Below, piece after piece: positions 2,117 to 4,084 of a stretch of 39,047 nt of DNA. The translations under genes and the position numbers were made by a program. Origin of the DNA: Bacillota bacterium (lineage in GTDB: Bacteria > Bacillota > Clostridia > Peptostreptococcales > Acidaminobacteraceae); NCBI GenBank assembly GCA_030529605.1, contig JAUMWO010000004.1, positions 1-39,047 on the forward strand, in the 5' to 3' direction. Below the pieces are notes generated by a model. The model was not told the origin of the DNA and searched no databases. It was given only the letters and a program-made list of their open reading frames with translations. Numbering within the stretch: position 1 is the first letter of the stretch; every line of letters starts with the position of its first letter.

Positions 2117-2596
2117 CTAGATTCGAGCGTCAAAGATGCTCTTGCGCTTCCCGTCGGAGCCGTAATTGCCTTCGGGCTCTCCCGCGTCAGCGAGCAGTTG
2201 CAAATTGAGATCGATCAGCTGGATTTTTTCTTCGAGAATGCGCGCGTTGAACTTGGTTTCCTCGCTGATCGTGTGGATGCCTACCAAGAGTTGGTTTTTT
2301 GCGTCGATCACGCGGCTACGCTCGGCAGCCGGCAGATGATCCGCGAGTTCCGAGATCGTTTTGATCTGCGGGATGCCGCGCTCTTCGATCAGGCGATCGA
2401 CGATTTTGGCGCGGATGTCTTCGAGTTTGTATAGCGCACCGACCAATCCCATCTCTCGCGAAGTCAATCGCTCGAGATCTTCGATTTTTTGCTCCTTGAT
2501 CAACTCCCGCTTCTCTTTGGCGAGTTGAATCAACTCCGTGTAAATCTCATTCGCCTTGTCCAGCGAAGCGATCAATTGTTCCATGGTCCTGCTCAT
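2117..2596 (-). CDS. flgN: FlgN-type chaperone for FlgK/FlgL
   Basis: This 159-aa, mostly helical protein fits the FlgN family of export chaperones, which bind the C-terminal helices of FlgK and FlgL in the cytoplasm. Charged heptad-like helices cover residues 5-60 and 85-135, with the family-typical run of Glu/Lys residues around LAKEKRELIKEQKIEDLERL. Sequence similarity within FlgN is low, so position carries much of the call: it sits between flgM and flgK, as yvyG does in B. subtilis. AAAGGAG precedes the ATG by 6 nt. The C-terminal tail (residues 140-159) is Gly/Ser/Lys-rich and probably unstructured. Confidence 0.85.
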   Translation of the reverse strand: MSRTMEQLIASLDKANEIYTELIQLAKEKRELIKEQKIEDLERLTSREMGLVGALYKLEDIRAKIVDRLIEERGIPQIKTISELADHLPAAERSRVIDAKNQLLVGIHTISEETKFNARILEEKIQLIDLNLQLLADAGEPEGNYGSDGKRKSIFDARI

Positions 2597-2925: not shown

Positions 2926-2978
2926 AAAAACCCCCTGTTGCCGATTTTCTTGTTTATAGTATCGGCAGACAAGGGGTT
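2926..2978 (-). terminator. 17-bp hairpin plus T-run between yvyF and flgM, enclosing a promoter
   Basis: Read on the minus strand, AACCCCTTGT-C-TGCCGAT pairs with ATCGGCA-ACAG-GGGGTT, giving 17 pairs with one bulged C and one wobble, around a 15-nt A-rich loop. The 3' arm runs into TTTTT, so it has the form of an intrinsic terminator for transcripts arriving from comF-yvyF. The same 3' arm contains the flgM ribosome binding site (AGGGGGT). The 5' arm contains the -10 element of the sigma-D promoter, so RNA started at that promoter would lack this arm. Pairing is seen directly; the regulatory effect is inferred. Confidence 0.75.
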
Positions 2979-2985
2979 AAGTTTA
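2959..2985 (-). promoter_or_regulatory. Sigma-D (sigma-28) type promoter for flgM-flgN-flgK-flgL
   Basis: On the minus strand TAAA is followed after exactly 15 nt by GCCGATAC, matching the sigma-28 consensus TAAA-N15-GCCGATAT at all but the last base. The first three bases of the TAAA box are also the TAA stop codon of yvyF. The predicted start of transcription falls in the loop of the hairpin at 2926-2978, about 35 nt upstream of the flgM start codon. Confidence 0.85.
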
Positions 2986-3357
2986 GCGTTTTTTTGTAAA
3001 CATACCGCGATGTTCTTTCGGCGTTTCTTCTTCGAGAGTCAAGCTGCTCTTGAGTTCGGCGGTGCATTTGTCGCAATATTTTCCCGAGAGCATCGGATCG
3101 CCGCAGCGCTGGCAGAGGCGGATGCCGGACTGGGAGGTCAGGACGATGCGCCCTTCTCGAATCCATTTGAGAATCGCATCGACTTCGACTCCCGTGCCTT
3201 CGCTGACGTCTTTGAGACTCGACTGCGGATTGTCGTAAATAAATTCGCGCGCCTTGGAAAATCCGTCGTCCGTAACCTCGTTGCACCGTGAGCAAAGCGT
3301 CTCCCCATGGTCGGACGCGAATAAGCGATTGCATTTTTTACAATTCAAGAGTGCCAT
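2983..3357 (-). CDS. yvyF: YvyF-family flagellar operon protein (zinc-binding)
   Basis: This 124-aa protein matches the YvyF/TIGR03826-type proteins found next to flgM in Bacillota; their biochemical role is not settled. It has an N-terminal zinc knuckle (CKKC near residue 6 and CSRC near 22), a central helix-turn-helix-like segment (SSLKDVSEGTGVEVDAILKW), and a second zinc ribbon (CQRC...CDKC near residues 86-102). The start is the ATG at 3357 with AGGGGGA upstream; a longer frame to 3429 lies wholly inside comF. It overlaps the comF 3' end by 20 nt, so the two are probably translationally coupled. The TAA stop is shared with the -35 box of the flgM promoter. Confidence 0.85.
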   Translation of the reverse strand: MALLNCKKCNRLFASDHGETLCSRCNEVTDDGFSKAREFIYDNPQSSLKDVSEGTGVEVDAILKWIREGRIVLTSQSGIRLCQRCGDPMLSGKYCDKCTAELKSSLTLEEETPKEHRGMFTKKR

Positions 3358-4084
3358 CTTTCCCCCTAGCGATCGACAGCGCGACGATTTCACGCGCACC
3401 GCAGTGATACAGAGCTTTGGCGGCGGCATCGAGCGTCGAGCCCGTCGTGTAAATGTCGTCGATCAACAGGACCTTTGCGCCTGAAATGACCGACTTCCAT
3501 TTGCTTTTGACTATTATAGCATTGTCGAGTTCTTTTTTTCTATCCTCTTTTTTGAGGCCGCTGAGCCGTCGCGTCCCGCGTGCACGGGAAAGTACATCCC
3601 GGCAAGGCAGAGCGATTTGTTTCGAAATCACCGATGCGAGCTCCTCCGCCTGATTGTACCCGCGCACGAAACGCCGTGTCCATCGAATCGGGACGGGGGT
3701 GATCCAGTCGACCTCGGCAAAAGCGGGATCCTCCTGCTTCAGCCGCTGATACAATGCGGCGATCTCACGCCCGAACGGATCCGCGAGATCGATTCGATCC
3801 TTGTATTTGAACCGGCGGATGGCATTGCGCACTGCGCCCTCGTAGTAAAACACGCTGCGATGCGCGCGGAAATAATGGAATTGCTCCTGGCATTCCTTGC
3901 AGCGGTACCCGTAAGGAGCATATTCCTCATACAGCGGAAGCTCCTTGCCACAAAGCAGACACAGATCCTTTCGGTACCGCCCGATCTGTGAGGCACAGTC
4001 GCAAAACCCGTTCTCGTCGTCACAGTAGGGGCAAGTAAGATCGCGAGGAAACAACAGAATTTCCCAGAATCTTGGTTGTGCCAT
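3338..4084 (-). CDS. comF: ComF family phosphoribosyltransferase-like protein (ComFC)
   Basis: ComFC proteins act in the cytosol during uptake of transforming DNA, working with the helicase ComFA and DprA in naturally competent Bacillota. The 248-aa protein has N-terminal zinc-finger cysteines (CPYC at 18-21, then CDC, CLLC and CKEC) and a C-terminal type I phosphoribosyltransferase fold with the loop VLLIDDIYTTGST at about residues 205-217. The ATG at 4084 follows AAGGAGG at about 5 nt; a GTG 15 nt upstream is less likely. Neither comFA nor comFB is present here, where recD2 sits instead, so a competence role is inferred from family only. Confidence 0.88.
   Translation of the reverse strand: MAQPRFWEILLFPRDLTCPYCDDENGFCDCASQIGRYRKDLCLLCGKELPLYEEYAPYGYRCKECQEQFHYFRAHRSVFYYEGAVRNAIRRFKYKDRIDLADPFGREIAALYQRLKQEDPAFAEVDWITPVPIRWTRRFVRGYNQAEELASVISKQIALPCRDVLSRARGTRRLSGLKKEDRKKELDNAIIVKSKWKSVISGAKVLLIDDIYTTGSTLDAAAKALYHCGAREIVALSIARGKDGTLEL

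Follow-up and report, generated by a model that had tools for sequence, protein, structure and literature searches.

A conserved hairpin before clostridial flgM that joins a sigma-D promoter, a terminator-like stem and the ribosome-binding site

The transposase genes of IS10 and IS50 are insulated from their surroundings in that read-through RNA from outside folds over the Shine–Dalgarno (SD) sequence and the element's own RNA does not. These are mobile elements and, unlike clostridial flgM, not a chromosomal regulator. Salmonella flgM is read both from an upstream promoter and from a sigma-28 promoter, and we know of no hairpin of the clostridial type there. In gene e of phage T4, long upstream RNAs form a hairpin that covers the SD, and lysozyme synthesis from them is 100-fold lower, whereas an internal late promoter lying in the 5' arm of that hairpin makes an RNA that lacks the 5' part and is translated (PMC3014915, PMC2988022). 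The logic is also established for I-TevI, and similar arrangements occur in segB and Aeh1 mobE (PMC3014915, PMC2988022). In Bacillus subtilis, read-through from comFA raises FlgM (Liu and Zuber 1998, as cited in PMC4793158).

The element that we describe here resembles T4 gene e in that the −10 box of an internal promoter lies in the 5' arm and, by predicted energies, the flgM SD is locked in upstream RNA and free in RNA from the internal promoter. It differs in that it lies on a bacterial chromosome and joins a flagellar sigma-D promoter to an anti-sigma gene, in that its stem ends in a T tract like that of an intrinsic terminator, and in that FlgM would act back on the same sigma factor from whose promoter it is made. 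A search of the open-access literature, which also covered promoters within terminators and whose silence is weak evidence, showed no report of this element for flgM or any other anti-sigma gene among the matches listed, and the passages of PMC5540618 and PMC7549644 consulted do not describe it. The logic of gene e was already known; its use at flgM, fused with a terminator, would appear to be new as a variant.

The window (the whole stretch of DNA analysed, 39,047 nucleotides) comes from a metagenome-type assembly of 190 contigs that is 71% complete. All genes near the site lie on the minus strand: a recD2-type helicase, a comFC-like and a yvyF-like gene, flgM, flgN and flgK. FlgM scores above its family cut-offs in a profile search, whereas YvyF and ComF score under theirs, so that both of the latter names rest on partial scores and gene order. 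Between the yvyF stop codon (2985–2983) and the flgM ATG (2923) lie 59 nt, which together with the stop codon contain the promoter and the hairpin listed in the table.

Features of the flgM site and the genes around it (positions are those of the window)
Feature	Positions	Strand	Remarks
Sigma-D −35 element, TAAA	2982..2985	−	outside the stem; its TAA doubles as the yvyF stop codon
Sigma-D −10 element, GCCGATAC	2959..2966	−	15 nt after TAAA; GCCGAT paired in the 5' arm
Hairpin 5' arm	2961..2978	−	AACCCCTTGT (2978-2969), bulged C (2968), TGCCGAT (2967-2961)
15-nt loop	2946..2960	−	from the fold
Hairpin 3' arm, contains SD	2929..2945	−	ATCGGCA (2945-2939) and ACAGGGGGTT (2938-2929)
flgM Shine–Dalgarno, GGGGG	2931..2935	−	wholly within the 3' arm; paired in read-through RNA
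T tract, TTTTT	2926..2930	−	terminator-type tail and most of the SD–ATG spacer
flgM, anti-sigma-D factor, 87 aa	2660..2923	−	PF04316 64.9 bits; TIGR03824 49.6 bits
yvyF-like gene, source of read-through RNA	2983..3357	−	TIGR03826 99.1 bits (cut-off 124.15)
comFC-like gene, upstream of yvyF	3338..4084	−	PF00156 31.3 bits; TIGR00201 99.4 bits (cut-off 233.55)
flgN, downstream of flgM	2117..2596	−	PF05130 81 bits

The sequence-only reading had proposed a 17-bp stem with one bulge that ends in TTTTT, in which the sigma-D −10 box is part of the 5' arm and the flgM ribosome-binding site part of the 3' arm, and both the coordinates and the fold bear this out. The minus strand of 2922–2985 folds at −25.4 kcal/mol (z −6.93, with none of 200 shuffles as good), pairing 2978–2961 with 2945–2929 in 17 pairs around a single bulge; at the base of the stem, two of the tract's five Ts are paired to AA. 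The plus strand of the same stretch is unremarkable (z −1.61). Sigma-D promoters have TAAA-N14-16-GCCGATA-like boxes, and this pattern has a single match in the window (2985–2959, minus strand) and none in 100 shuffles. The site also has the sequence form of an intrinsic terminator, a stable, G+C-containing stem followed directly by the T tract; a generic terminator scan did not list it because that scan takes only loops of 3–8 nt. The covariance models of Rfam gave one chance match, elsewhere and on the other strand (14 bits against a gathering threshold of 75).

Three side observations concern the neighboring sequence. A second terminator-like hairpin lies between flgM and flgN (2637–2611, minus strand: TCGGAC-GGAA-TGTCCGA, then TTTTCTTTTT). 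Among nine loci of family f1 that were viewed, L004, L007, L010, L012, L013 and L094 have a similar CCGGAC/GTCCGG hairpin behind flgM, and L005 and L014 do not. A vegetative-type promoter match with an extended −10 (TG) lies in the 3' part of comFC, upstream of yvyF (3542–3513, minus strand), in a scan where nine such matches were found and 5.1 were expected by chance.

We consider it likely that this 60-nt element is an insulator that is bypassed by its own promoter. RNA polymerase arriving from comF-yvyF would transcribe both arms; the hairpin and T tract would then stop the bulk of these transcripts at the flgM start codon, and in transcripts that ran past the tract the flgM SD would stay locked in the stem. 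Polymerase carrying sigma-D would instead start in the loop, about 6–8 nt after the −10 box. RNA begun at this promoter would lack the 5' arm, and with that arm missing both termination and the SD lock would vanish and translation would be free. FlgM would thus be made when sigma-D is active, as negative feedback, and not upon transcription of the upstream competence-type genes.

The predicted cost of opening the SD is consistent with such a lock. With the sigma-D RNA modeled as starting about 6 nt after the −10 sequence, the cost in the window is 13.5 kcal/mol in read-through RNA and 4.2 kcal/mol in sigma-D RNA, which supports the earlier claim that the SD is hidden in upstream RNA and free in promoter RNA. 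The means over 79 junctions of yvyF with flgM are 13.2 and 3.2 kcal/mol, respectively (L028, L089 and L092, members of family f9 where the hairpin is absent, and L038, whose start was mis-picked, were left out). For 37 control flgM genes that do not lie directly behind yvyF the mean is 2.8 kcal/mol (without L142, L143 and L144, the start codon chosen for the last being probably wrong).

The element is conserved in the taxonomic order of the window. Among 297 genomes of this order, 90 have a YvyF match, and these gave 83 yvyF–flgM junctions, in which a flgM start was found no more than 350 nt downstream of the yvyF stop; G146 was left out, as were six genomes in which no such start was found. 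We called an SD locked where the fold lies below −10 kcal/mol and the SD's pairing partner stands over 25 nt upstream. This is the case in 80 of the 83 junctions and in eight of nine families (f1, 20/20; f2, 19/19; f3, 12/12; f4, 4/4; f5, 5/5; f6, 1/1; f7, 3/3; f11, 16/16; f9, 0/3). A stricter set, which adds at least three paired bases of the −10 CGATA and a T run, holds 70 of 82 distinct junctions; several of the other 12 belong to f3, where the −10 box reads GTCGAT and the stem pairs just its first bases with GACT or GATT. The gap between yvyF and flgM ranges from 59 to 320 nt, and a run of at least four Ts precedes the start codon in 72 of 82 junctions behind yvyF versus 2 of 40 controls. 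The tract argues for termination, yet in many members its Ts are paired to As at the base of the stem, and their conservation is thus no proof. The three f9 junctions (L028, L089, L092) keep the yvyF–flgM order with neither hairpin nor T-rich spacer and so count against the insulator reading.

Genera that carry the element include Fusibacter (f1; the genus belongs to Fusibacteraceae), Alkaliphilus (f2), Maledivibacter (f5) and Anaerosolibacter (f11), in an order that we take to be GTDB's Peptostreptococcales. A motif-pattern scan of genome contigs matched 30 stretches, of which 17 precede a FlgM-like reading frame and 13 do not; the scan presupposes the motif and thus yields names rather than an estimate of prevalence. 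Two junctions have further structure: L017 has a weak fused hairpin (z 0.2), preceded after yvyF by a separate hairpin that bears a T run, and L072 has terminator-like sequence upstream, yet the strongest fused stem of all (−40 kcal/mol).

The two arms have changed together. An RNAalifold run on a 77-sequence MAFFT alignment returned no consensus structure, because bulges and loop lengths vary between families. We thus divided the elements behind the −10 box and combined each 5' part in silico with each 3' part (78 sequences, without duplicates and the three f9 junctions). Own pairs fold at a mean of −25.3 kcal/mol and foreign pairs at −18.1 (z −17.4, 20,000 permutations). Within families, none of 20,000 permutations matched the observed fit in f1 (19 sequences), f2 (19), f11 (16) or f3 (12), and 616 of 20,000 were as good in f5, with five sequences. 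An alignment of 18 of the 20 f1 rows on a named 18-pair structure (leaving out L017 for its weak hairpin and L093 as a duplicate) has 87.4% of cells paired, versus 42–52% when partners are slid by one to three columns. Its covariation score is 0.196, versus 0.137 in shuffles, and 12 cells are changed on both sides, versus 5.0; none of 500 shuffles reached either value, and these shuffles ignore relatedness. Counts of covarying pairs and of pair types lie weakly above the shuffles (reached by 57 and 49 of 500, respectively). The sequence-only reading had looked to relatives for covariation of the stem, and in the window's family it is found. We also considered that the stem might be a by-product of two constrained motifs, the −10 box and the SD, and rejected this because neither motif needs the ATCGG arm and because swapped arms fit worse.

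The hairpin goes with an upstream yvyF; where flgM does not lie directly behind that gene, the hairpin is almost never present. As controls we used 40 such flgM genes of the order, drawn from about 64 genomes without a counted yvyF–flgM junction (a figure obtained by subtracting the 83 from the 147 genomes with a FlgM match). The median fold z is −5.67 in 82 junctions behind yvyF versus −0.17 in the controls, and z lies below −3 in 74 of 82 versus 2 of 40. Both of these controls (L142 and L143) belong to f1 and have other reading frames upstream of flgM. By the plain lock definition six controls have a locked SD (L119, L133, L136 and L138, weakly; L142 and L143). Fisher values for the link with yvyF were set aside, as they mix criteria and ignore phylogeny; f3 has members among both the junctions and the controls. 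CGATA occurs in the searched upstream stretch of 22 of the 40 controls, so a sigma-D-type −10 sequence alone does not bring the hairpin. Nor do other sigma-D sites carry it, including one ahead of a flagellin-like gene: in the window's genome, the four other exact sites of five have no hairpin, and in three relatives, where 30 of 39 exact sites were examined, only the flgM site of G015 has it. At L302, one of the relatives' sites, there is a stem (z −4.2), but it is unrelated and no reading frame was found to follow. G037 and G087 deviate at flgM from the exact TAAA-N14-16-GCCGATA pattern, though both carry the element.

Outside the order, the fused form is clear in only one of the junctions folded, L165 (f53, same class, other order), where a hairpin with a T tract precedes flgM and the opening costs are 12.5 and 1.2 kcal/mol. 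In f30, which likewise does not belong to the order, inspection of 13 loci by eye showed at least 8 with an ordinary terminator behind yvyF and then a distinct sigma-D promoter; a separate terminator and sigma-D-type promoter precede the next gene in L148, L153, L154, L155, L157, L159, L161 and L168. Judged by eye, f30 may have assembled the same insulation from separate parts.

The comparison with B. subtilis can be extended to family f163, presumably the Bacillaceae, which keeps the comF-yvyF-flgM order and a sigma-D-type −10 before flgM. There, unlike in the clostridial element, the mean SD opening cost of 36 distinct junctions is 4.6 kcal/mol (2.8 in the short RNA), and a T tract ahead of the start codon is lacking in all junctions viewed. 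As far as sequence and predicted folds indicate, the element is absent or much weaker in these presumed Bacillaceae. At most of their loci (L254–L282, L329, L330, L333, L334), the end of yvyF has a GATTCC able to pair with GGAATC at the flgM SD; this pairing is weak and lacks a T tract, and some loci have an inner stem near the −10 box.

Other explanations of the hairpin could, in principle, hold. One is that it serves simply to end the comF-yvyF transcript and is packed onto the promoter and ribosome site for space, the SD lock being a by-product. The T runs described above would fit this idea, as would the f30 loci, whose terminators after yvyF suggest that termination at this point is a recurrent need. 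Nevertheless, the SD is paired in nearly every junction even though gaps of up to 320 nt leave room for a separate terminator, and the lock adds about 10 kcal/mol to the cost of opening the SD. We think this explanation unlikely as a full account; it is also a partial rival, as the outcome for the cell would be nearly the same.

A translational coupling of the two genes, which we regard as the chief rival, seems unlikely too. Ribosomes finishing yvyF would open the 5' arm and pass to flgM, so that read-through FlgM would track YvyF, as the comFA effect in B. subtilis might be taken to suggest. Only 4 nt separate the yvyF stop from the stem in the window, and in 29 of 80 junctions the distance is at most 12 nt. 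In the other 51 the stem starts more than 12 nt past the stop (the median is 15.5 nt), which we take to be beyond the reach of a terminating ribosome; moreover, the hairpin is retained with inserts of 215–320 nt (L030, L072) and with an intervening gene (L143), and coupling leaves unexplained why the promoter is positioned to give RNA without the 5' arm. In the window's species, ribosomes ending yvyF so close to the stem could nonetheless partly undo the block. That the hairpin acts in some other capacity, as a DNA cruciform at the promoter or as a site for a protein such as CsrA, is highly improbable: a GGA stands beside the bulge in the 3' arm of some junctions, but many, the window among them, have no GGA near the bulge, the loop differs in length and sequence, and the stem is missing at other sigma-D sites of the same genome.

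Thus, the element is real, conserved and covarying, and we infer that the model in the sequence-only reading, in which the stem terminates or hides the SD and sigma-D RNA escapes, fits its function best; each prediction of that model that could be computed came out as it should. By this model the flagellar brake, FlgM, is probably made only when the sigma factor that it restrains is active. On a broader reading, a single 60-nt stretch would serve as sigma-D promoter, terminator, SD lock and SD–ATG spacer, the anti-sigma gene would be expressible only by the sigma factor that it inhibits, and an order-wide clostridial lineage would thereby have cut the comF-to-flgM read-through wire that B. subtilis keeps; the balance tips slightly toward this reading as a whole.

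If the insulator reading is true, the choice of the sigma-D start site itself lifts the block on sigma-D's own inhibitor, giving a strict feedback loop that is insulated from the neighboring genes. We know of no earlier chromosomal, conserved case of the T4 late-gene arrangement, and this would then be the first such case known to us, with a terminator built in as well. It would also account for a difference between bacteria of the same gene order, in that read-through FlgM can be a genuine input for B. subtilis but not for these clostridia.
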